Shown: piece by piece, positions 2,107 through 38,001 of the stretch | How the letters are laid out: each line of letters begins with the position of its first letter | How positions within the stretch are numbered: the first letter of the stretch is position 1 | Origin: Kalmanozyma brasiliensis GHG001 | Taxonomy: Eukaryota > Basidiomycota > Ustilaginomycetes > Ustilaginales | Direction: 5' to 3' | Length of the DNA stretch: 64,000 nt | NCBI RefSeq assembly: GCF_000497045.1 | Contig: NW_015961959.1 | Coordinates: forward strand, 310,001-374,000 | Notes under the pieces: generated by a model | Database searches by the model: none | Told to the model about the DNA's origin: nothing | Seen by the model: only the letters and a program-made list of their open reading frames with translations | Translations under genes and position numbers: made by a program

Positions 2107-5100
2107 ATGTTGGTCTCGGCGACGCGGGGCTTCCGCGCTACAAGCACATCACGGACACTCTTGTCTACATCAGCACCTCGTCTAGCATCCTTGCAGTCAC
2201 GGTCCCACTTGACCTACCTTCGAGGACCGCACGCGCCTGGCCCACTTTCGACCTCGAGACCACCCACACTCGCTTCTCGCACCCTCGCATCCTTCGTCGG
2301 TCCCTCTGGCACCATCCCCGAGCCCAACGCGCTCCAAGTCACCGACCCGCTCCTCATCTACCGCGCCAAGGTCGCACGGGGCGAGCTCGAAGAAGACGAA
2401 GAGCAGCTCCGCGCGCTCGTCGAGCTGCGTCGCATCAACCGCACTTTACGCGATTACGTTCCGCCCGCACATCTCCTGGGAATTCTGCATCACGACACCC
2501 AGTCTGCCTCCTCTGCCGCCCTCGCCAGCGCTATCGACTCGCGGCTACGTCCGGGTGCAAAGGAGTTTCGCGATGAACCTTCAGCCAAACCGTCCGGCGA
2601 GAATATCGGAGAGCTCGTCCGTTGGCTTAGCGAGAGCGAGGGTCTTGCGGAATTGGGCACGCCAAAGGGGCTGCTCATCACCGGCACTCCGGGGACAGGA
2701 AAGAGCATGGTCATGGACATCTTCTTCGATTCGTTGCCTACAAAATACAAGTTCCGGCGCCACTACCACCATCTCCTGCTCGATCTGTACAAGATTATCT
2801 GGGAGGAAGCAGAGCGACGACGACTAGCGGTACGTCAGGGGACACCACGCGCCACAGCAACGCCCGAGATCGGGACCGGGGCGATATGGCAGCGCGATCC
2901 AGGGGCACCCAAGAGCGCATCGGCGTGGAGGCGCGCCTTGCGGGGGATGCCGTTCTTCCGACCCGACTCGCTCGCCGATGGCAACAGCGAGCAGCTGCAG
3001 TACATCCCAGGCCCAGACGGCGACGTGGTCAAGACGACACTCCCGCTGCATGCCGCCGCGCATCTGTTCCTCAATCACGGCCACATTTTGCTCTTTGACG
3101 AGATCCAGCTGGTGGACGTCGCCAGTGCTGGACTGTTGCGAAGGACGCTCGAGGCGTACTGGAGATTGGGTGGTGTGGTGATCGGAACGAGCAATCGGAT
3201 CCCCAAAGATCTGTACGCGAGCAATGTGCAGCGTGGACAGCTGACGCAGTTCCTCGAGATCCTGCAGGAACGTTGTCCCAACCACGAGATGCGACGGAGT
3301 CGAGATTTTCGCCGGGAACCTTTCTATCGACAGGAATGGTTGGAGCGCAACCAGGAGGCTGATTCCGAGCATCCTACCGCGGAAGCCAGCGAACCAACAC
3401 CGACCCAACCACAAACATCTTACTTCCTCCGCAACGAGGCTGACAAGTATGATTCCCTAGTCAGCAGCATCATCGCTGGTCGCACCTCCACACCTACCAC
3501 CCTCAACGTCTACGGTCGGCGACTCCTGGTCCCACGTTCTATCCCAGCCAACGAAACCCACCCCTCCGTCTGCCGCTTCCACTTCTCCGAACTGTGCGAT
3601 TCGCCCCTTGGGCCGGCAGACTACCTCACCCTCGCCTCGACGTATCACACGTTCATCCTCGAGGGCGTACCGCAGATGACGCTGATGCAGAAAAACCAAG
3701 CGCGCAGGATGATCACGTTGCTGGATGCGGTGTACGAGGCGGGGTGTCGGTTGGTCGTTCTGGCCGATGCGGGACCGGACGACTTGTTCTTCCCCGATGC
3801 GGAGGGGGCTGCTCGCCACGCGGCGCGTGGACCTGCTGCTGGACCTGGTGACGTTCGTCCCGAACTGCAATACACTGCTCACGAAGACGTCGTTGACATG
3901 TCCACTAAAGGCGGTCGATCACCCTTTCTCACCCCGCCTCCCGGGCAAGGCTATCCGGAAGAGGAGGAGCTAGCAAGACACAAGGCGGGACAAAGGGTCG
4001 ATTTCAGCGCAGACGAATTCACATCCGAGTCCCTCATCATGGCCGAAACGCTCTCCGAAGCGATGCAGGATACCGAAGAGGGCTTTCGACCGAATATCTC
4101 GGCCTACTCGTCCGACCGACCCTCCCGTTCCCCCTCTTCCTTGCCCAAGGACGACAAGGTCGGTTTCAAGCATCTAGCCATCTTCAGTGGCGAAGATGAA
4201 CGGTTTTCGTACCAACGCGCCGTGTCGCGGTTGTTTGAGATGAGTCATCCCGACTGGATGAGGCGGAAGGGGTGGCGGCCGTTCCTCGGGGGCGAAATGC
4301 AGGCTTGGGCCGGCACGAAGAAGGTCGAAGAAGCGGTAGGGAAAGTGGTGGTGGCGAATGAGTTGAATGAGGCACAACGGCATCTGGATCGGGCGGCGGA
4401 GGCGGCGGTCAAGCTGTCTTCCTCGTCAGCAGGAGCGTCCGCAGACTCTCCGGCAAGGTTCGTCGATCCCAGCGGTGATTTTGCCGAAGAAGCGTCGTAC
4501 GAGACCGCCTCGTTCCCCGGGCGACGGGAGGCACAGACAAAGCTCGAGCGCGAAATGGAGCAGTGGTCCGCAAAACAGCAACAGGCAGCCCAGGAACAGC
4601 AAGGGAAGAACAAGTACGAAGCACCGGACTTCTCGCCCGGTCCGATCGGCAAGAAGCGCAATCGGGATCAGGGCCCACCGGTTCTATCCGAAGCGCACGT
4701 GTGGGGGGTTCGGGAGGACTGGGGCAAGAAAGCGGGTGCTTGGGGTCGAGGCTCCTCGATCTTTGCTGACGACACTCCTTCCAACGGAGACAAATCTGCT
4801 CATCCAACGAAACCACTTCGTCGGCCCAGTCCGTCTTCGAGCAGCAGCGGTGGTGGCAGCAAACGCAAGTTCAGCACCACCTCCCTGCGCAGCGCGCAGA
4901 CGCTGAATCACTATACGACGCTCCAGATTCCCCGCAGTGCCACGCAGGCACAGATCAAAGCGCAGTTCTACAAGCTCTCCAAGGAACTTCATCCGGACGT
5001 CAACCCGTCTGAAGATGCCAAGAAGCGGTTTCAAGAGGTGTCGGAGGCGTATGCGACACTGGGTACGCCGGCCAATCGCAAGTCGTACGATCGGGCCTCT

Positions 5101-5544
5101 CAACCGTCGGCCGGTGGAGGGGGGTATGGCGATAATGTCGGTGGTGGGGGGTACCACTACAATGCGGAGGACAACGCCAACCGTCGAGCACGCGCGACGT
5201 ACGCATGGGACTACCAACGTCGACGCAAAGCGCAGGAGACCTCATCCCAATCACAACGAGCCCACTCATCCATCTTCAATCGCGCCGAGACCATGGGCGC
5301 CGGTAGTGGGGATACGGCGTTCGAAACGCTAGCTGCGCAACAGCGCGCAAGGGAAGAAAGAAACCGCGCCAGACAAGCCGGCAGCGACGCGTGGAGCATG
5401 GAGGATAAGGCGTACCAGAACGATGTCAGCAATCCGTTTGTCAGGTTCGGACAGGTGGTCGTCATGTTGTATCTGGTGTACAAGGCCGGGACGATGTTTG
5501 TTGGTGGGGAGAGGAGGGAGAATAGAGCTGGGAGGAGGACGTGA
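2107..5544 (+). CDS. AFG1/LACE1-type mitochondrial ATPase fused to a C-terminal J domain
   Basis: This is a single uninterrupted 1145-aa frame. Residues 1 to about 60 are Ser/Arg/Leu-rich and resemble a mitochondrial presequence. Residues about 70-850 are an AFG1-family P-loop ATPase, with Walker A GTPGTGKS (Lys199), Walker B LLFDEIQLVD (Asp331, Glu332), sensor-like GTSNR, and the family block FSELCDSPLGPADYL. AFG1 proteins act in turnover and quality control of mitochondrial inner-membrane proteins. After a VWGVREDWG block and a Ser/Gly linker comes a complete J domain (about residues 934-1002) with the HPD motif at 962-964. A Gly-rich stretch follows, then a predicted membrane segment (about 1112-1132). 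Just before the J domain is KRKFSTTSLRSAQ, which looks like a second, buried presequence. No Met lies between the modules, so the J domain has no start of its own. Function of the fused protein is inferred. Confidence 0.85.
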   Translation: MLVSATRGFRATSTSRTLLSTSAPRLASLQSRSHLTYLRGPHAPGPLSTSRPPTLASRTLASFVGPSGTIPEPNALQVTDPLLIYRAKVARGELEEDEEQLRALVELRRINRTLRDYVPPAHLLGILHHDTQSASSAALASAIDSRLRPGAKEFRDEPSAKPSGENIGELVRWLSESEGLAELGTPKGLLITGTPGTGKSMVMDIFFDSLPTKYKFRRHYHHLLLDLYKIIWEEAERRRLAVRQGTPRATATPEIGTGAIWQRDPGAPKSASAWRRALRGMPFFRPDSLADGNSEQLQYIPGPDGDVVKTTLPLHAAAHLFLNHGHILLFDEIQLVDVASAGLLRRTLEAYWRLGGVVIGTSNRIPKDLYASNVQRGQLTQFLEILQERCPNHEMRRSRDFRREPFYRQEWLERNQEADSEHPTAEASEPTPTQPQTSYFLRNEADKYDSLVSSIIAGRTSTPTTLNVYGRRLLVPRSIPANETHPSVCRFHFSELCDSPLGPADYLTLASTYHTFILEGVPQMTLMQKNQARRMITLLDAVYEAGCRLVVLADAGPDDLFFPDAEGAARHAARGPAAGPGDVRPELQYTAHEDVVDMSTKGGRSPFLTPPPGQGYPEEEELARHKAGQRVDFSADEFTSESLIMAETLSEAMQDTEEGFRPNISAYSSDRPSRSPSSLPKDDKVGFKHLAIFSGEDERFSYQRAVSRLFEMSHPDWMRRKGWRPFLGGEMQAWAGTKKVEEAVGKVVVANELNEAQRHLDRAAEAAVKLSSSSAGASADSPARFVDPSGDFAEEASYETASFPGRREAQTKLEREMEQWSAKQQQAAQEQQGKNKYEAPDFSPGPIGKKRNRDQGPPVLSEAHVWGVREDWGKKAGAWGRGSSIFADDTPSNGDKSAHPTKPLRRPSPSSSSSGGGSKRKFSTTSLRSAQTLNHYTTLQIPRSATQAQIKAQFYKLSKELHPDVNPSEDAKKRFQEVSEAYATLGTPANRKSYDRASQPSAGGGGYGDNVGGGGYHYNAEDNANRRARATYAWDYQRRRKAQETSSQSQRAHSSIFNRAETMGAGSGDTAFETLAAQQRAREERNRARQAGSDAWSMEDKAYQNDVSNPFVRFGQVVVMLYLVYKAGTMFVGGERRENRAGRRT

Positions 5545-17188: not shown

Positions 17189-18659
17189 TCAGTCGCCTTC
17201 CTCGATATCGTTGCCGCCCATGGTCTGCTCCTCTCTCGCCAACATTTGTGTTGCCAGCTCGATGCCCTCCAGTTCGCCTATTGTCGGTCCATCGTCTTCC
17301 GTCTCACCACTCTGGTCCTCCACCGTGCCCACTGCGTCGGTGCTCAGCACACTCGTGCCGCGCGGAGCAGGAGTGGCAGATCCTCGCATCGGACTAGGTG
17401 AGCCTCCCACTTCGCTTTCTGCCGGCGTCGCACCACGGAAGAGCGGGGTAGACCCCCTCCCGATGCTGGCGTTTCGGCTCGATCGCTCCGCTGGCTCGAG
17501 AGAAGTGAACCGCCCTTGCACTGATCCCGAGCGGTTGTTGGCAATGCCAGGAGTCATCGATCGTGGAGCAACCGAGAGCTGACGGATCTCGGTCGTCTTT
17601 TTCTCGCCAAAGAGCTCCGGGTGGGCTGCGAGAGTACGTTTGGATGGCTCGACCACGAGGACGAGGAGCTTGCCGAAGCTGTATACGCCAGGAGATGAGA
17701 AGGAAAGCAGGATCAGCTACGTGTCTCTGGACAGTCAGGAGTAAGGAGTGCTGGACATACATTCGAAAGCCAGCATACTTGACATGCAGCTTTGGTTTCA
17801 TCTTTTCTTCGTCCTCTTCTGTTATGATGATGGGTGCGTCGTCCGCAGCATCGACGCCTTCGTGAAGCAGCGCAGTCGCGTCTGCTGTTGCATCATCAAT
17901 CGCTAGCGCAGCTGCAGGATCCGGCTTGACGTCGACATCATCTTGAATGCGGACCCGCTTCGATCGTCGACTCCCTTCGCTTGCTGTGCTGCTGCCGGCC
18001 CTGCTTCTCCGTGTGCTTGTGCTCGCCGGCGGTGGCATCGAAAGAGCATCGTCTTCTGCTGCACCTCCTCTGAAAAGTGCACTGTCCTCTGCTCCTGACA
18101 ATGTCGCCATGCTCGCATTCGACGATGAAGCTGCCATCTCCTGCGCCTCGGGAGAGTCTTTGATCCTCATAGGCTGATCGCTGCTCTCTCCATCCCTGAC
18201 ACCTGTTCCTGCCGCGACACTGGCCGCCCTCTCTGGCGCTGGCGTCGCCCTCGGAATCGGCGCATGCAGATTTCCATCGCCTTCTTCCTCCACCTTGACT
18301 TCGCCGAGAGTCGGATCGCTCGGAAAGATCAGACTCTTCTCCTTGAGCAGCACCGAATGTCGGTCGTCCATCCTCCTGAAGAAGTAGGCCACCTGGAAGT
18401 CGCGATCCGAGTAGACATCGACTCGCTCCTTCTTGCTCATGGCCGAGAGCTTGCCAGATGAGTCGGACTCTTTGCGAAGTTTCGGCATGATGCGAGTGCG
18501 AAGGATCGAAAGCACCTGGGTGAGGATCGCCGGGTTGAGGTTCATCCATTCCACATGGCGGTAGTCCAGGTAAAGAATGGTTTGGAGGACGACGTAGGGC
18601 GAGGCTCGAAGGTAGAAGACGTTGCGCTGGGTGAACTTCTTGCCCTGTATCGCGCTCAT
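17189..18659 (-). CDS. Unknown conserved-looking protein, two exons
   Basis: The model is complement(17189..17678, 17761..18659), 462 aa, with an 82-bp intron (donor GTATGT, acceptor TACAG) that keeps the frame. The start is the first true ATG; the open frame before it begins at TTG. Two segments look structured. Residues 1 to about 115 (KKFTQRNVFYLRASPYVVL, then YLDYRHVEWMNLNPAILTQV) are predicted helical. A short block spans the splice junction (KLHVKYAGFRI-FGKLLVLVVEPS). Between them are about 180 residues of acidic, Ser/Ala/Pro-rich sequence with a basic patch (RRSKRVRIQDD) that could be a nuclear localisation signal. The tail is disordered and acidic. I do not recognise the family, and no function is proposed beyond a possible nuclear location. 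Confidence 0.7.
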
Positions 18660-18926
18660 CTTGTCGCTGTGACAGCTCGCAATGCTATCGAGGATGTTGG
18701 TGAACAATGGAGCAACAGCAGAAGCAAGCCTTCATGAATGAACAGCTGAGCACCCTTGAAGTGGAGGCTTTGGGCTGCCCGATGCTGCAGCCGATCCATT
18801 TTTTGACTCCGTCCAAAAAGTCGGGAGACCCTTGTCCGAAGCCGAAGCAAAGGGGAGCACAGACCCTTCGCTCCTCCTTCTTCCCCTTCCACACCTCGTA
18901 AAATCAACAGGAGGATCAAACAAACG

Positions 18927-21764
18927 ATGCCATCCTCGAAGCGATCCAAGAAGGTGGCCCCTTACGGCTTCTGGGAGTCGCCCATCTCGACCGACCTTCT
19001 CCTCCAGAAAGCAACGCCTCTATCCGAGGTGGTCGTGCCGGCCAACTCCGAGACGGGTCAAGATGTCGCCTGGATCGAGCTTCGAATGAGCGAGTCCGGT
19101 CGCTATGCCCTCATGCACTCGTCCGATCTTACCTCCGGAGACGCCACCGAGATCACTGCGGGCAAGTTCAGCTCTCGATCCGGAATCCACGAATATGGCG
19201 GTGGTGCGGCAGCGAGCCTCGCCGACGGAAGCTTTATCTTTTCCGACTACAACCCGAAAGCATTCGATGTGCTCAGAGCAAGGAAGGACGAGGAGCCTCA
19301 GGTGGTGACGCCGGAGAACGCGGCTCTCCGATATGCCGACTTTGGGCCCCATCCTACCGATGCGAACCTGTGCCTTGCCATCCAGGAAGATCACGCCGAG
19401 GACAAGCCTTTGACCGTCGTCAACTCGATCGTGCTGCTCGATCTCGCCTCGGCGCCGGCGAAGATCCATACCCTGCTGCAAGGCAAGAAAGCGGACGACA
19501 CGTCCGATGCGAGTGGTCCGCACAATAGAGACTTTTACACTTTCGCACGCTTCTCGCCCAACGGCAGGTACGTCTGCTGGGTCAGCTGGAACCACCCGAG
19601 CATGCCCTGGTGGGACACGCAGGTGTGGGTGGCCAAGCTTGATCGCTCTGACCCCGCGTCACCCAAGCTTGTCTCGCCAACCCAGATAAAGGTGCCATCT
19701 GCCGAGGCGGGAAAGCAGCAGGTGCTCCAGCAACCCGTGTGGGCCATCCCTGCCAACCCCAGGGACGACGCAGCCAAGCTCTTCTTCGCCTGCGATGCGA
19801 CTGGCTTCCTCAACCTCTACTCCACCACTGTATCTTCCGCTGGCGATGATCTCACTTTGACCGCGCCAGAGCCCGTCCTCCCTGAGCCAGTCAAACACGA
19901 CTTCGTCGGTCCAGCATGGACATGCAACAACTCGGACTACATCCCTCTCTCCCCGGACCTCCTCATCGTCACCTACACCTCTGGAGCACGTGAGAACCTC
20001 GGTTTGATCAATCTCCGTCGTCCGCGTCTGATCCCGCTCACCACTCCCTTCGTCGCTCTCTCCCAACTCCGCCGACTCACCTCGACGTCGTTTGCGCTCC
20101 TCGCCACGCGACCGGACGAACCCTCCGCGCTCATCCGCATCGACCTTCGTGGCCTCGCTGCCAACAACTACGTCCTCCAGTCGTCGAACATTACGACCAT
20201 CAAACGCTCCTCTACGCTCATCGCCGATGGCGTTATCGACAAGTCCTACCTTAGCGTCGCACGTGAGATTGACTTTCCTACCACCTTGCCGGATGGCACA
20301 CCGGCCACGGGACACGCGATTATCTTTGAGCCCCAGAACGGCGACTACGTTGGTCCACGCGGCAAAGCCCCGCCGTGCGTGTTCAACATCCACGGTGGAC
20401 CGAGTGCCAGCGCGGGGATGGGGTTCAATTTGCAGACGCAGTTCTGGACGAGTCGCGGATTTATGGTTTGCAGCGTGAACTATGGGGGTAGTACAGGGTA
20501 CGGGAGGGAATTTTTGGAGAGACTGACGGGCGAGTGGGGGGTGACGGATGTGATGGATTGCGTGGCTGCTGCGAAGTACTTGGGGAGCAAGGCGAGTGTG
20601 GGACATAGTTTTGGGGAGTTAAGCGAGGCAGAGCAGAGGAAGGTGAGGGAAGAGCTTGCTCGATCGACGGAGGACGATGCGGTGGTGGAGGAGGAAGACC
20701 TGCCAGGGGGAGGAGTCAAGGTGACGATCCGCAACACCACGCCGGCCTGGTCGTGGTCGGACATTCTCTTGGCTGGTGCGTCTGTCGGCGCAGCATACTT
20801 TGGCATCACCTTCGCCCACACCGTCATGACCAACTACACGCACTGCATCCCGCCTCTCGTCCGGCCCACCACGACCTTTGCTCGACACGCGGTCAAAGCG
20901 GGCATCGCCGCGCTAAGCGTGCTGCCTTATGTGAGGAGCAAGCTCGGGCGGGTGACGAGCGAGTCGGTCTCGCTGTTGCCAGGGATGGGTGTTCAGCTGG
21001 CGACCACCCGTGGGCTGGTGCTGCACACAACGCTGTTCGAGCGCACCACCACGCGTTTGATTCTCGAAGACAGGGTGGTGGATATCTACGTGGGAGAAGG
21101 ATATCGGTTCTTTAGCGTGATCGACTACCTTGCGCTAGCGACACGCACACAGACGGGTGCATCGATCGAGCGGGTCTTCCCTACGCTTCTTCCTCGTCTG
21201 GGCACCGTTCAACGGGTGTATCGCACCCTAGCGCCTCACATCCCCACCAACCACACCGAAAAGCGGGCTTCTGGGCAACGTAGAACCCTAGCCGATCCAA
21301 ACGGGCTCTTGATTTCCGGCGGCAGCGCGGGAGGCTACACCGTTCTAGCGTGTCTCTGCTTCCACCCGACCATCTTCCACGGCGGCGTATCCCGCTATGG
21401 CATCTCTAGCCTCTCCCTCCTCGCAGCAGAGTCGCACAAGTTCGAATCGCAATACCCCTTCCAACTCATCGGCGGTACACCCGAATCCCATCCGCAGCTG
21501 TATCACGATCGATCCCCCCTCTACGCCGCCAGCCGCATCAAGGCGCCCGTGCTGCTGTTGCAGGGGAGCGAGGATAGGGTGGTCCCCCAGAGCCAGGCGG
21601 ATGAGTTCGTAAGGGAGCTCAAGAAGGGTGGTGGTAAAGAAGGCGTCGATTGGAGGTACAAGGTGTACGAGGGGGAAGGTCATGGATTTAGGAAGGCTGA
21701 GAATGTCAAGGATTCACTCGAGGAGGAGCTGCGTTGGTGGCAGACACGGTGTTTGCGTCGCTAA
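18927..21764 (+). CDS. S9 prolyl-oligopeptidase-type peptidase with an embedded PIG-H module
   Basis: This is one open frame of 945 aa. The N-terminal part (about residues 1-470) is the propeller-like region of a dipeptidyl/acylaminoacyl peptidase relative (starting YGFWESPISTDLLL). The alpha/beta-hydrolase follows, with the oxyanion block FNIHGGPSASAGMGF, then NYGGSTGYGREFLERL. The nucleophile elbow is SGGSAGG (Ser800), the acid QGSEDRVVP (Asp883) and the base EGEGHGF (His919), so the triad is intact. Between AAKYLGSK (about residue 555) and LADPNGLLISGG (about 788) lie roughly 230 extra residues that do not belong to S9 peptidases; they are annotated separately as PIG-H. Whether the protein is made as this chimera, or the insert is spliced out or separately expressed, cannot be settled from DNA. 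Confidence 0.82.
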   Translation: MPSSKRSKKVAPYGFWESPISTDLLLQKATPLSEVVVPANSETGQDVAWIELRMSESGRYALMHSSDLTSGDATEITAGKFSSRSGIHEYGGGAAASLADGSFIFSDYNPKAFDVLRARKDEEPQVVTPENAALRYADFGPHPTDANLCLAIQEDHAEDKPLTVVNSIVLLDLASAPAKIHTLLQGKKADDTSDASGPHNRDFYTFARFSPNGRYVCWVSWNHPSMPWWDTQVWVAKLDRSDPASPKLVSPTQIKVPSAEAGKQQVLQQPVWAIPANPRDDAAKLFFACDATGFLNLYSTTVSSAGDDLTLTAPEPVLPEPVKHDFVGPAWTCNNSDYIPLSPDLLIVTYTSGARENLGLINLRRPRLIPLTTPFVALSQLRRLTSTSFALLATRPDEPSALIRIDLRGLAANNYVLQSSNITTIKRSSTLIADGVIDKSYLSVAREIDFPTTLPDGTPATGHAIIFEPQNGDYVGPRGKAPPCVFNIHGGPSASAGMGFNLQTQFWTSRGFMVCSVNYGGSTGYGREFLERLTGEWGVTDVMDCVAAAKYLGSKASVGHSFGELSEAEQRKVREELARSTEDDAVVEEEDLPGGGVKVTIRNTTPAWSWSDILLAGASVGAAYFGITFAHTVMTNYTHCIPPLVRPTTTFARHAVKAGIAALSVLPYVRSKLGRVTSESVSLLPGMGVQLATTRGLVLHTTLFERTTTRLILEDRVVDIYVGEGYRFFSVIDYLALATRTQTGASIERVFPTLLPRLGTVQRVYRTLAPHIPTNHTEKRASGQRRTLADPNGLLISGGSAGGYTVLACLCFHPTIFHGGVSRYGISSLSLLAAESHKFESQYPFQLIGGTPESHPQLYHDRSPLYAASRIKAPVLLLQGSEDRVVPQSQADEFVRELKKGGGKEGVDWRYKVYEGEGHGFRKAENVKDSLEEELRWWQTRCLRR
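20593..21290 (+). other. In-frame PIG-H/GPI15-like module inside the S9 peptidase gene
   Basis: The inserted segment first shows a charged stretch. Two predicted membrane helices follow (SWSDILLAGASVGAAYF, about 20750-20820, and AVKAGIAALSVLPYV, about 20890-20935). Next comes a stretch matching the PIG-H family: TSESVSLLPGMGVQLATTRG, then VVDIYVGEGYRFFSVIDYLA and VFPTLLPRLGTVQRVYR. PIG-H is a subunit of the ER enzyme that adds GlcNAc to phosphatidylinositol, the first step of GPI-anchor synthesis. The helical hairpin followed by this domain is the normal, complete layout of PIG-H. There is no stop codon or private ATG. A strong donor-like AAG|GTGAGG sits at 20640-20648, and a weaker phase-compatible acceptor (GAAAAG, ending at 21263) would excise 621 bases in frame. 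Confidence 0.75.
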
Positions 21765-21824
21765 AGTGCACACACTCGCAATCAATGTGAAGATCAGATG
21801 ATGAAGATGGATTGTGTGAAGTGT

Positions 21825-24800
21825 TTAGGCGAACATGGATCCGCCGGTGACAGTGGCGCTGCGCATACCGGGGACACTGGATACGCGACTAGCTTTGACA
21901 CGGTTGCCGACACCGCTGTTGACCGACTGACCGGGGATGGTTCCTCCTCCTGCGCCTAGGGTGAGCAGCGGATTGGCCTGTCCGATGACGGCTACGCTGG
22001 TTCGGGTGCGGCGTCGAATCGGGCCAGGACCGCCGGCGCTAGGACGAGGGAAGGCTTTTTTCACGGGCACGGCGCCGTCGGTGTCAACGGTGGCGGGGAA
22101 GACGGGGAACGAGGAGCCGTTGAGCAGTCGTGCGGCGGGAGCAGAGGCGGCTGTGTTGGTGGTTGCGCGGAGGGGTGGGCGCGGGTTGAGAGGTCTGAGC
22201 GGCGCAACGGGGGAGGCGTTGGAGATGTCGGCTTCGTCGGCGGATGTCCCGCTGGCCTCGCGAAGAGGGGAGAGCGTGGACGTGCTTGACACAGATCTTT
22301 TGGTCTCGGGGAATGCGCTTAGTCCTCTCGATGCTGTTCCGAGCGATGTGGATCTCGAGATCGGCTTGGCCGCAACCGAGGTCGCTGGCTTGACCAACTG
22401 CGCTGGTGTAGTGCGCCCATCAGAGACGTCCTCCCATTCAGCACCCGAGCTGCTACCCGCACTGTCTCCCGTCGTTGCGGAGTCCTCCGCAGCTGGACCG
22501 TGAGCAAGACCTTTGTCGTCGATCGATCCCTCACCCGCTTCGTCCGCCCAACGGAACTTTTTCTTCTCCTCGACCACGGGTAGGGCTACAGCAACTGGTC
22601 GGCTGGATCGGACTAAGCTCAGCCTCCGCGTCGCGCCGGCTGTGCTGACTCTGCGTGTGGCAGCCGTCTTTCGTGCTGGACTGCTGGTAGTGACCTGCGA
22701 TCGGGCAGAGGAAGAAGAGGTAGGAGCCGCGAAGCTGGGTCGTGATGTCGAGGTGTTCAGGATGTTGCTTGGTTGAAGGGTGGAAGGGGAGCTCGCGACT
22801 TGCATGCTGGTCGAGCGAGCCAGGGGAGGCGCGATGGATGCTCGGCGAGAAGATGCGGCAGTGGCGCGGCTGAACCCAGTCGCTGAAGACGAGACGGATC
22901 GTGTCGAGCCGACCGGAGCAGCTGAGGAGCTCGTCGCGGAAGACGCTGAGCTGGCTGGCGCCGTAGCTGGTGATCGTCGCAAGGCTGAGCTGATCGCCGG
23001 CTTCGTCGTTCGTACTGCAGCTGTACTTGCTGTCGAAGGAGCAGCGGTAAATGCGGGCAAAGGCGCGGCTACGGGCAGCGCTGCTCCGCACATGGCCTCG
23101 AAGATCTTTTCGTTCTCCCCTGCAATGCTGCGCAGCTGTGATGCCAGCAAGGTGAGCGTTGATGAGATCTCTGCGGTGCCTTCACTGCTCGCGGTCTCGT
23201 TGGTTGCGGTAGCCCTGTACTCGAGCTCGCCGGCGACCTCTCGGAGTGCGATCGTGCTCCTCGTCGCTGCAGAGACCAGCTGCGTGGACTCCGTCGTTGA
23301 GCGTCGCAGCGCATCCAGAAGCCCAGTGAACTTGACCTTCGCCTTCTCCGCCTCGACCTCTGCCAGCATGGCGTTGCCCAGCGTTTGAACTGTCTCGGAT
23401 GCCTCTGCATCAAACTTCTGATTGTGCGAAGCGGCGACGATGATGCCTCGCTGCATCTGCAGGCTATTGAGTAGGCTCCTTACACCAGCACACGTGGTCT
23501 CGTCCTTCAGCGCCGCTTCCTCGGCCGCGACCATCTTGCGCAGAACATCGCGTTCACCCTCGAGGTCGGATGGCAGCACCTCGTTTTTGCTGCTGAATCG
23601 CTGAAGGTCGGCTTCGACGACAGCCAAGCGTTTGCGCAGCTCCGCAAGCTTGGTCTCGGCAGCTGCCGTTGTAGCTTCGAAGCCTGCTTTGTCGGTTACG
23701 AGTCTGGTGACGTTGTCGGTGCTCTCGCGCATCCGCTTCTTGGCTTCGTCCACTTCTCGGCCCATCTCTGCACGTTTGCGCTTTTCTGCTGCGGACTCGA
23801 GCGTGCCTCGCTCGTCCAGCTTAGCGCGCAGTCGTTCGTTCTCCTCCTTGAGCTCGTGAATTGCCTGCACGTACTGAGCTACGTGACGATCGACGTTGAT
23901 CATGTTGCGGCTGACCTTGGTGCGGATGTTCTTGGCTTGATTGGCGTACTTGAGCGCGTTGTGCGTCTCTTCGTAGTGAGCGCTGGATGGGCTGATGCAG
24001 ACCACCATGACTGTTTTGCAGTTGCCACCGAGGGAGAACTTCAACAAGCGGGTGAGCTTGGAATTGCGGTAGGGGACGTGCTTAACCACGCCGCCCGACT
24101 GGCAGAGGGCGTTGATGCAGTTGCCGAGTGCGAGCAGCGACTTGTTGATGTTGGCGCCTTCTTTCATTCGCGCACCGTTGTTGCGCGTTGCAGAGGCACG
24201 CTCTGAGCCAGCGAGATCGATAATGTTGAGGGAGGCCGAGGTGGTCTGCTCCGTCATGCTGGCGGTGCGTGGCTTCTGAGTGACGTTGATCTGGAGCACG
24301 GCGTGGGATCGAGAACTGACTGCGTTTGCCTCGGTGGGACTCATAGTGCGTCGGAGGTTGCCTTCCTGCAGGTACTGGAGCACACTCTCTGGACTCTCCG
24401 GGATGAGCTCGGTGATGCCTACCACTGAAATACGGTTGTTCGCGTCTTCGCGAAGTGCCAGACCAGCACCCGGTGGTGTAGGCTCGGAGCTGAGCAGGTC
24501 GCGAATGGTCTCGTTATAGATCTCGAGATAAGAAAGGCGAATTTGGACGTCCGAGTCGTCGCGAGCGTCCTGGATGCGGGCGTAGAGCTCCTTCATGGTG
24601 AGAAAGATGAGGCCTGGGTCCTCAGGTGTGCCGCTGATCGTGTGCGTTTTACCGCATCCTGTCGCACCGTATGCGAAGACACTTGCGTTGTAGCCGTTCA
24701 GAATGCCATCGAGCAGCGGGCTGCAAGTCTCTCGAAAGACGTCGGTCTGAGATGCTGTCGAGTCGAATACGCGGTCGAAGGCATATCGAACGTCTTTGTT

Positions 24801-35498: not shown

Positions 35499-35934
35499 GC
35501 TGACAGATAGCAAGCGATGCGGCTAGCAAAGCTGCTTCTTGAGAGAAAGCCCGGATGGAATATTGAAGGAAGAGAACGATGTGATACTTGGTGACAGGAG
35601 GGAGGAAGCGTCGAAGAATGTGATGGTCCAAGAACAGCGTCGGCCAAAGCGAGCGTGACTGTGTGATGTCAGTCTGAGCGGCCGGATGAGCCGCTCGCTC
35701 TGCCTTTCTGATGCGGTCAATCCGTCTTTGCGTCTGTGCGTGAAAGCGCCCAGATGTGGAGACTTTTTCGAGACCAGTTCAAGTGTCGATCTGACACTTT
35801 TAAACAATTCGCGCACCAGCCAACACCGTGTCTCAAAAGTGTTGTTCTCTCGACCCTCCTTCCTGTCTCCTTCCACCAAGCCTACATCGCACAAGGTCGT
35901 CGACGCCGTGGACCCATCCTCGGGGCTCGTCACT
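35499..35934. promoter_or_regulatory. Divergent region between the DysF peroxin and PIG-S
   Basis: About 430 bases lie between the chosen starts. Half of it (35686-35934) is an in-frame extension of the PIG-S frame that begins at a real ATG. I treat this as probable 5' leader, but it could be coding. No other element is recognised. Confidence 0.45.
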
Positions 35935-38001
35935 ATGGCAGTGCCGCTCGTCTTCCAGAGCCTCGGCACGCGCGTCGCCATCTTGGCCTGCTTCTGGGCT
36001 GCCCTCCTCGCAAGCATCCCATCTTGGCTTCGACTCACCACGATCCAGCGGTTACCATTACCGACACGCCAGGTGGAAGCGCTGCAACACTCGGGATCGT
36101 GTCCGGTCACATTTCAAGCCAGCCTTTCGGTATATGTTGATCCCGCGATACTGCCACAAGACGATGCAGAGGGACGCAGCGCCGATACGTTTCTGCAACA
36201 GGTCGAGCAGCTCATACAGCAGAGTCTCGAGATCAAGGCGGGTCTCCCGGCCGCTGCTTCTCTCGAGTGTACGCGGTGGAAGGTCGCTGCGCAATCGACA
36301 GTGGCTGTAGACAATGTAGCATCAGTCGAGCCAGAGACGGCCTCCTACGCGATATTGGTGCTGAGCGAAGCGCCGGCACCTGACAATCATGGTTGGATCC
36401 CAACGGTCTACCTTCCCGATGAAGATGAGCCGGCGTCGCTTCCACTAGTACCGGACACGATCAGCGCTGCTGTCATTGCTGAACTCCTCTCATTGCGGGG
36501 CGACAAAGCGCCTGCAAGCGCCGACGAGGCTTCGAACGCAGCAATCGCGGACATGGAACAAGATCCGCGCGTCATCCAGTACAGCAAGCACGTCCGACTC
36601 GTTTTCAGCGTCATGAATCAAGACACCGCGGACGGAGGCGCGTATGACAGCTCGCTCATCCATGCTCTGGCAAATGCGAATGATGACGCAGACAATCCGA
36701 TCACCAAACTCAGAAGAGAGCTCAGCGACCTGCACGACTTCCATGTCGATACGCAGGTTCAGTGGTTCGCACCTTTGCATTTCCAGCCTACGCAGGAGAT
36801 TTTCGAGGAAATTGTGGAGGGGGAGGTGGAAGAGGAGGTGATAGTGGATGAGGAGATTGAAGAGGAAGTGGAGGAGGAGGTCGAGGTCGATGACGAAGAC
36901 GAGCCGTCGTTGACGGGGCGCGTCGCAGATGATTCAGAATCGGAGGCAGAGCCATCCGAGACATCATCGGAGGACAACGAACGAGAAGAAAGCGAAGTCG
37001 AAGGGCAGCTCCAATCCGCAGCAGCCAAAGCAAAACGCACAAAGCTAATCACCGTCAAGCGCAAACGCATCATTCAGGTTCCGGAGCTTCAGCGGGTCGT
37101 CAAGCAGACCCGCACTCGCCTGCCACCACGCTACGTCGTCGAATGGGACGACCTCAAAGTATTCGTCAACTCGGAAGAGTGGAGTCTCACCTCGACCGTC
37201 CCGCCCACCTCCTCCGCGGACGACTCGAGCCTCGGCCGACCGTACGACGTGCTCTCGCAGACGCACGATCTGCACTTCCTGCTGTACATCCCGAGCAAGT
37301 CGCATTCGCCGCTGCTGATCCGGGACACGGTAACGGGCGGGGTGAACGAAGCGTCCAATGCGTGGCTGATCCCTCAATGGGGCGGTGTGGTCATCCTCAA
37401 CGTCGACGATGGGCGAAACGTTTCGAGCGGCTTGATCGATCCTTCGCTCGAAGCCGAGAAGGGCCGTATCCAGGATCTACCGCAAGACGACGTCCAGCAA
37501 GCGATCTCTCTCTTCGCGTATCAACTCGAGATCCTCCTTGGCCTGGGGGACGTACGTCTACCAGCCCGATCTCTGCATCGTCGAGTGCAGCTATCGACGC
37601 TGAAACAGCGACGCATCCTCGAATTGGCCCGGGAGAGCACCTCGGCGCTGCTCGCCATCACCCGCCTCGTCTCGCGCATCGAGAACCTCGGTGTAGGACC
37701 CGACGTCACGGCCGACACCAAAGCCGCATTGACCATTCTGGAGTCGCTCGCTGAACAAGATCTTGGGTTGGACGACATGCTGGCGCGGGTCAAAGAGGCA
37801 CATGCTTTGAGCAACAGGGCTTTTTTCAACCCGGACATGCTCGGCCTGCTGTACTTCCCCGACGAGCACAAGTATGCGGTGTATACACCCTTGTTCGCCC
37901 CCCTGCTCGTGCCGTTGTTGGTAACGAGCGTCAAGCTGGCCAAGGAGGTAGCGGCGGGGAGGAAGAAGGTGGCCAAGGGCAAGGGGAGACGGTCCACTTG
38001 A
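35935..38001 (+). CDS. GPI17: GPI transamidase subunit PIG-S
   Basis: The product has 688 aa from the ATG at 35935. An in-frame ATG at 35686 would add 83 residues of no family character. With the later start the first membrane helix falls at about residues 10-30, as in the family. PIG-S is part of the ER GPI transamidase that swaps the C-terminal signal of proteins for a GPI anchor. An N-terminal helix (VAILACFWAALLASIPSW, then TTIQRLPLP) leads to a lumenal domain (AWLIPQWGGVVILN, YQLEILLGL). A second helix near the C-terminus is in YAVYTPLFAPLLVPLLV. The lumenal domain is interrupted by an acidic Glu/Val/Asp-repetitive run (about 36800-36910) and then a Lys/Arg-rich run before LPPRYVVEWDDLKVF, which I have not seen described for the family. 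Confidence 0.88.
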   Translation: MAVPLVFQSLGTRVAILACFWAALLASIPSWLRLTTIQRLPLPTRQVEALQHSGSCPVTFQASLSVYVDPAILPQDDAEGRSADTFLQQVEQLIQQSLEIKAGLPAAASLECTRWKVAAQSTVAVDNVASVEPETASYAILVLSEAPAPDNHGWIPTVYLPDEDEPASLPLVPDTISAAVIAELLSLRGDKAPASADEASNAAIADMEQDPRVIQYSKHVRLVFSVMNQDTADGGAYDSSLIHALANANDDADNPITKLRRELSDLHDFHVDTQVQWFAPLHFQPTQEIFEEIVEGEVEEEVIVDEEIEEEVEEEVEVDDEDEPSLTGRVADDSESEAEPSETSSEDNEREESEVEGQLQSAAAKAKRTKLITVKRKRIIQVPELQRVVKQTRTRLPPRYVVEWDDLKVFVNSEEWSLTSTVPPTSSADDSSLGRPYDVLSQTHDLHFLLYIPSKSHSPLLIRDTVTGGVNEASNAWLIPQWGGVVILNVDDGRNVSSGLIDPSLEAEKGRIQDLPQDDVQQAISLFAYQLEILLGLGDVRLPARSLHRRVQLSTLKQRRILELARESTSALLAITRLVSRIENLGVGPDVTADTKAALTILESLAEQDLGLDDMLARVKEAHALSNRAFFNPDMLGLLYFPDEHKYAVYTPLFAPLLVPLLVTSVKLAKEVAAGRKKVAKGKGRRST

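Follow-up and report, generated by a model that had tools for sequence, protein, structure and literature searches.

The locus considered here raises the question of how PIG-H, a subunit of the GPI-N-acetylglucosaminyltransferase (GPI-GnT), comes to be encoded inside the open frame of an S9 peptidase, and whether the product is one chimeric protein, two proteins separated by splicing, or the outcome of internal translation. It lies in a window of 64,000 nucleotides from Kalmanozyma brasiliensis GHG001 (contig NW_015961959.1). Elsewhere PIG-H is a small separate protein. GPI-GnT activity in mammals needs PIG-H, whose specific role is described as not clear (PMC7125958), deletion of GPI15 is reported as lethal in yeast, and Caenorhabditis elegans and Entamoeba histolytica are described as lacking PIG-H (PMC6559964). 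The answer developed below, and judged probable, is that the locus is a real internal gene fusion, a domain insertion that is transcribed and translated as one protein of 945 residues.

A single frame runs on the forward strand from the ATG at 18927 to the stop at 21764, and its 945 codons span both families, which bears out the proposal of an earlier sequence-only reading that a PIG-H module lies in frame inside an S9 peptidase, with Pfam matches to each. The peptidase part is recognized by Peptidase_S9 (PF00326) at 140.2 bits against a cut-off of 22.6, in two stretches of which the best covers residues 787-939. The prolyl oligopeptidase of PDB entry 7c72 aligns to residues 7-552 and again to 788-938 with only four residues of its own chain between the two, and the alignment with 3azo and 3azp extends to residue 556 and resumes at 789 with a single chain residue between. 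The N-terminal part (residues 1-556) comprises the propeller region and the start of the catalytic domain. Further homologues were sought by tblastn against 72,556 plasmid records, of which 84 matched, none with one place covering 80% of the query; ten of the 84 were taken and two of these dropped (L037, annotated as two CDS, and L041, which carries no annotation). The resulting alignment holds nine rows, the 945-residue protein and eight prokaryotic S9 peptidases at 30-38% identity. Ser800, Asp883 and His919, to which the triad roles are assigned from the pattern of the S9 family, are invariant in all nine rows, and the intact triad claimed earlier thus stands. Family match and catalytic residues alike place the protein among the S9 peptidases, with the exception that its alpha/beta-hydrolase domain is not continuous, being interrupted by 231 residues. 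In a profile search the broad S9 family gave 14 matches across the genome, of which this gene accounts for two, and a search with the whole protein hit one place only, at an E limit of 10. No relative of the whole protein appeared in a scan of the genome contig collection, and none of the nine-row S9 alignment in viral contigs. The frame has close neighbours on both sides, a divergent 421-residue ORF with no Pfam match that starts 267 bases upstream (18659-18927) and a kinesin ORF that ends 60 bases downstream, tail to tail (21764-21825), which leaves little space for a separate promoter or terminator.

The interruption itself can be delimited closely. Residues 557-787 are absent from all eight aligned prokaryotic peptidases, as expected from the earlier statement that S9 enzymes carry no such insert, and they enter the fold in the loop between a helix and the strand leading to the nucleophile elbow. 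The interval first proposed, 20593-21290, was nearly right, homology placing the block a few bases inward at both ends (Table 1). The block contains no in-frame stop in frame 0, as had been claimed, against 11 and 3 in the other two forward frames. Of the two membrane helices attributed to it, one is clear in the hydropathy profile (residues 613-631, Kyte-Doolittle 1.48) and the second weak (651-669, 1.09); since on the same scale a stretch of the PIG-H core (681-699) reaches 1.17 and one buried in the S9 part 1.58, hydropathy alone proves neither segment. Single-sequence AlphaFold2 places helices at block residues 55-81 and 92-117 with a mean pLDDT of 42.0, and its model of the whole protein, at 33.4, is too poor to judge the fold. 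The block has no match in the PDB at E up to 1, and scans of the genome contig collection and of viral contigs yielded no relatives of it. A flanking direct repeat, considered as an insertion scar, was discarded when 1463 of 2000 random window pairs aligned equally well.

Table 1. Coordinates of the S9/PIG-H open frame, its parts and candidate splice pairs (window positions), and of the CIA30-PIG-P frame elsewhere in the genome.
Feature	Position	Strand	Basis
Complete 945-aa frame: S9 peptidase carrying the PIG-H block	18927..21764	+	ORF and Pfam
S9 peptidase N-terminal part (residues 1-556): presumed propeller region and start of catalytic domain	18927..20594	+	PDB 7c72 and S9 alignment
Inserted block, residues 557-787 (S557-T787), 231 codons, 693 nt	20595..21287	+	missing in 8/8 aligned prokaryotic S9 homologues
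Best in-frame GT-AG pair, rival retained-intron model, weak	20596..21291	+	10.2 bits; 11/288 controls as high
Splice pair named in the sequence-only reading; in frame, fair donor, poor acceptor	20643..21263	+	7.8 bits; donor 6.3, acceptor -1.0
Clearest hydrophobic segment of block (residues 613-631)	20763..20819	+	Kyte-Doolittle 1.48
PIG-H domain PF10181 (residues 680-752, profile 1-67 of 67)	20964..21182	+	Pfam, 52.2 bits, E 5.2e-14
S9 peptidase C-terminal part (residues 788-945)	21288..21761	+	Pfam, PDB alignment, S9 alignment
Ser800 codon, expected nucleophile	21324..21326	+	invariant in 9/9 alignment rows
Asp883 codon, expected triad aspartate	21573..21575	+	invariant in 9/9 alignment rows
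His919 codon, expected triad histidine	21681..21683	+	invariant in 9/9 alignment rows
CIA30-PIG-P open frame, 420 aa	L032 1489-2751; genome C8 about 149951-151129	-	Pfam

That the block encodes PIG-H follows from a full-length match to PF10181 at more than twice its curated cut-off of 25 bits, a match that is far beyond chance. When the genome was searched in six frames with the PIG-H profile, this locus gave the only match (57.7 bits, E 1.5e-14) in 17,269,742 bases on 26 contigs, the whole of the 17.27-Mb genome. That this is the genome's only PIG-H, a condition posed in the sequence-only reading, is thereby upheld at the sensitivity of a profile, one that a second copy divided among very short exons could escape. 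Profiles for the partner subunits PIG-A, GPI2, GPI1 and PIG-P each matched once, elsewhere in the genome. The frames of GPI2 and GPI1 look ordinary, and that of PIG-A begins inside its own domain, so that PIG-A probably has a separate first exon. The window also holds PIG-S, a subunit of the GPI transamidase, at 35686-37998 on the forward strand (330.8 bits), about 14 kb downstream of the S9/PIG-H gene.

The coding character of the frame was followed across the junctions by codon scores, for which 39 long ORFs of this genome served as the training set, in 33 windows spanning residues 451-945. In 31 of these, frame 0 outscores the other forward frames, the scores being weak around residues 736-800. 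A reverse frame outscores it in 10 of the 33, chiefly at residues 481-571, where the antisense excess is perhaps a by-product of codon bias. An antisense ORF of 315 residues (19659-20606, reverse strand) lies across the S9 part and reaches as far as the point where the block begins. Methionines near the block fall at residues 543, 634 and 687, with none between 543 and 634, and the first stop after the block comes only at 21762; PIG-H together with its first hydrophobic segment can therefore be made only within a longer chain, barring unseen splicing.

It is thus one open frame, matches to both families, retention of the triad residues, the sole PIG-H found and the lack of an intron of usual quality that support a fusion, and what counts against it are the weak codon scores around residues 736-800, the windows in which a reverse frame scores higher, a best in-frame splice pair that nearly restores the S9 loop, and the fact that only one of the two expected membrane segments is clear. 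PIG-H adopts a hairpin topology with both ends in the cytosol, and in an alpha/beta-hydrolase the loop between such a helix and the nucleophile strand faces away from the active site. With the PIG-H coding sequence seated in that S9 loop, just ahead of the strand to the nucleophile elbow, the gene would give one transcript and one chain of 945 residues, in which the block would loop through the ER membrane as a hairpin, its two ends facing the cytosol. If it does so, the two halves of the S9 domain could meet again and fold on that face of the membrane, which is also where GPI synthesis is stated to start (PMC7125958). The chimera would then serve as the PIG-H subunit of GPI-GnT and at the same time hold the peptidase at the ER surface. 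A translated chimera is plausible in fold and topology as judged from the sequence, and we infer its topology, its expression as one chain, its membership of GPI-GnT and its peptidase activity.

A second frame in the same genome offers a parallel. The genome's only PIG-P (residues 295-417, 118.6 bits) shares a frame of 420 residues with a CIA30 domain (25-99, 42.5 bits); every donor within this frame scores below 6 bits, and its translation has no methionine between about residues 212 and 385. Another CIA30 match occurs at C12:924313-924567. In two of the five GPI-GnT subunits tested, PIG-H and PIG-P, the subunit is thus joined in frame to a soluble domain. As a control, 39 ORFs of at least 400 residues were taken from 200 kb elsewhere, 32 of which matched Pfam with an E-value no higher than 1e-5, and by the author's judgement against known architectures none of the 39 pairs unrelated families, the combination of Rieske and Pyr_redox in one of them (L002) being taken as a known architecture. 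The idea that spurious fused frames occur throughout the genome was set aside on this count. The PIG-P/CIA30 parallel and the 39 unremarkable controls together favour true fusions. Within the window, two of the 18 ORFs of at least 280 residues pair unrelated families, the S9/PIG-H gene and a frame of 1145 residues (2107-5541, forward strand) in which an AFG1 ATPase (136-561) is paired, unusually, with a DnaJ domain (934-995) and which has a hydrophobic C-terminus. Such fusions are uncommon in the genome and not unique to the S9/PIG-H locus, and nearby fusions could share a cause other than translation as one chain.

Splicing provides another explanation, in which 20596-21291 would be an alternatively spliced intron of 3n length, an exitron like that of PTC7, whose removal would give a soluble S9 peptidase and whose retention would give a membrane form carrying PIG-H. 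The segment has the length, open frame and ends expected of an exitron, being a multiple of three (696 nt, phase 1), free of in-frame stops and bounded by GT and AG in frame, and without it the S9 loop would fall one residue short of its length in the homologues. The strength of its sites was judged with matrices from six introns inferred from interrupted Ras-family genes of the same genome, whose ends were chosen by eye; all six have GTRNGT donors, and all six a CTRAY motif 35-44 nt before the intron end, although the last CTRAY at 30-50 nt upstream of the acceptor was what defined the branch site, which makes the consensus partly one of construction. Further candidate introns toward the 5' end of L048 were ambiguous and did not enter the set, and looser de novo lists of 59 and 31 candidates were too noisy for use. 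Against 22.6-34.6 bits for the six in-sample, the pair 20596/21291 reaches 10.2; left out of their own matrix the six score 6.9-31.4, five of them at least 16.6 and one, at 6.9, below the pair in question. Only 11 of 288 control placements, which overlap and lie on both strands of long ORFs, score as high. The CTRAY motif is missing before the 21291 acceptor, where the best branch-like site has 4.0 bits. With the same matrices no acceptor and branch of 11 bits or more occurs inside the ORF, in which two lone donors, 19568 and 20776, reach 7 bits. The sites named in the sequence-only reading, a donor at 20643 and an acceptor at 21263, are in frame and the donor is fair, but the pair was rejected on its poor acceptor, GAAAAG. 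Intron retention is reported as the main form of alternative splicing in Ustilago maydis, where the retained introns carry degenerate sites and can be as long as 743 nt (PMC2219887), and fungal genes giving two proteins are described for PTC7 and SKI7/HBS1 (PMC3597508). Weak splice sites are thus compatible with a retained intron, given such degenerate sites and the near-restored S9 loop. The PIG-P frame, however, is a fusion of the same kind without any comparable donor, and a retained coding intron is on balance considered rather unlikely here.

It is quite improbable that PIG-H is instead a nested or overlapping gene, with a promoter of its own or an internal start of translation, and ended by unseen splicing or processing. 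Nested genes are known in eukaryotes, and Met543 stands in the same frame 14 codons ahead of the block. PIG-H has neither a start nor a stop codon of its own, however, and because the block lacks a stop, a product begun at Met543 would run through the C-terminal half of the peptidase and carry half an S9 domain, which disfavours internal initiation; nor does the ORF offer a strong acceptor to which a separate first exon could be joined. Were an unrelated gene placed here, composition predicts a shared frame with open linkers on both sides about 4% of the time, the linker limits being the author's choice. A misjoin in assembly or sequencing that brought the block into the peptidase gene is scarcely to be credited; the analysis covered the assembled sequence, in which such an error would have to place the assembly's sole PIG-H in frame and exactly in the loop between conserved S9 segments. 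Of the three explanations first offered, the chimera is accordingly the best supported, splicing being weak.

Set beside known systems, the fusion resembles PIG-H/Gpi15 in its full-length profile match, with one clear and one weak candidate membrane segment ahead of the domain, and differs in residing within a peptidase frame. It resembles the S9 peptidases 7c72 and 3azo in homology over both flanks and in the conserved Ser, Asp and His, and differs from them in the extra residues ahead of the nucleophile elbow. In PTC7 of Saccharomyces cerevisiae, described as having an intron that is spliced or retained with both forms coding (PMC3597508), there would be a likeness if the block were a retained coding intron, although here the splice signals are weak and the block amounts to an entire subunit of a different complex. 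The SKI7/HBS1 gene of basidiomycetes, whose exon 2 is described as skipped in Ustilago maydis (PMC3597508), is likewise one fungal gene with two functions, but its two proteins are related and have common domains whereas S9 and PIG-H are unrelated. The CIA30-PIG-P frame, which also joins a GPI-GnT subunit to a soluble domain without a strong donor, is an end-to-end join and not an insertion within the partner. Both gene fusion and domain insertion are familiar events, and PIG-H inside a peptidase would be a further case. A PIG-H/peptidase fusion is not named among the literature matches listed, a set mostly outside subscription journals and domain databases, and an unremarked smut annotation is possible.

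One practical consequence concerns annotation, as a gene model that removed the block as an intron would report a genome without PIG-H. For the pathway, it may tentatively be proposed that GPI-GnT has been rebuilt with soluble cytosolic modules, PIG-H in a prolyl-oligopeptidase-type enzyme and PIG-P with CIA30, such that the first GPI enzyme would carry its own peptidase. Were the block spliced, one gene could make either the ER subunit or a soluble peptidase, with the removal of a whole-subunit block as the switch. If the sole copy of PIG-H does lie inside the peptidase, GPI synthesis and a peptidase would be joined in one polypeptide, an apparently essential subunit would depend on the gene of an unrelated enzyme, and what PIG-H does, like any regulation that the peptidase exerts, would become directly testable.
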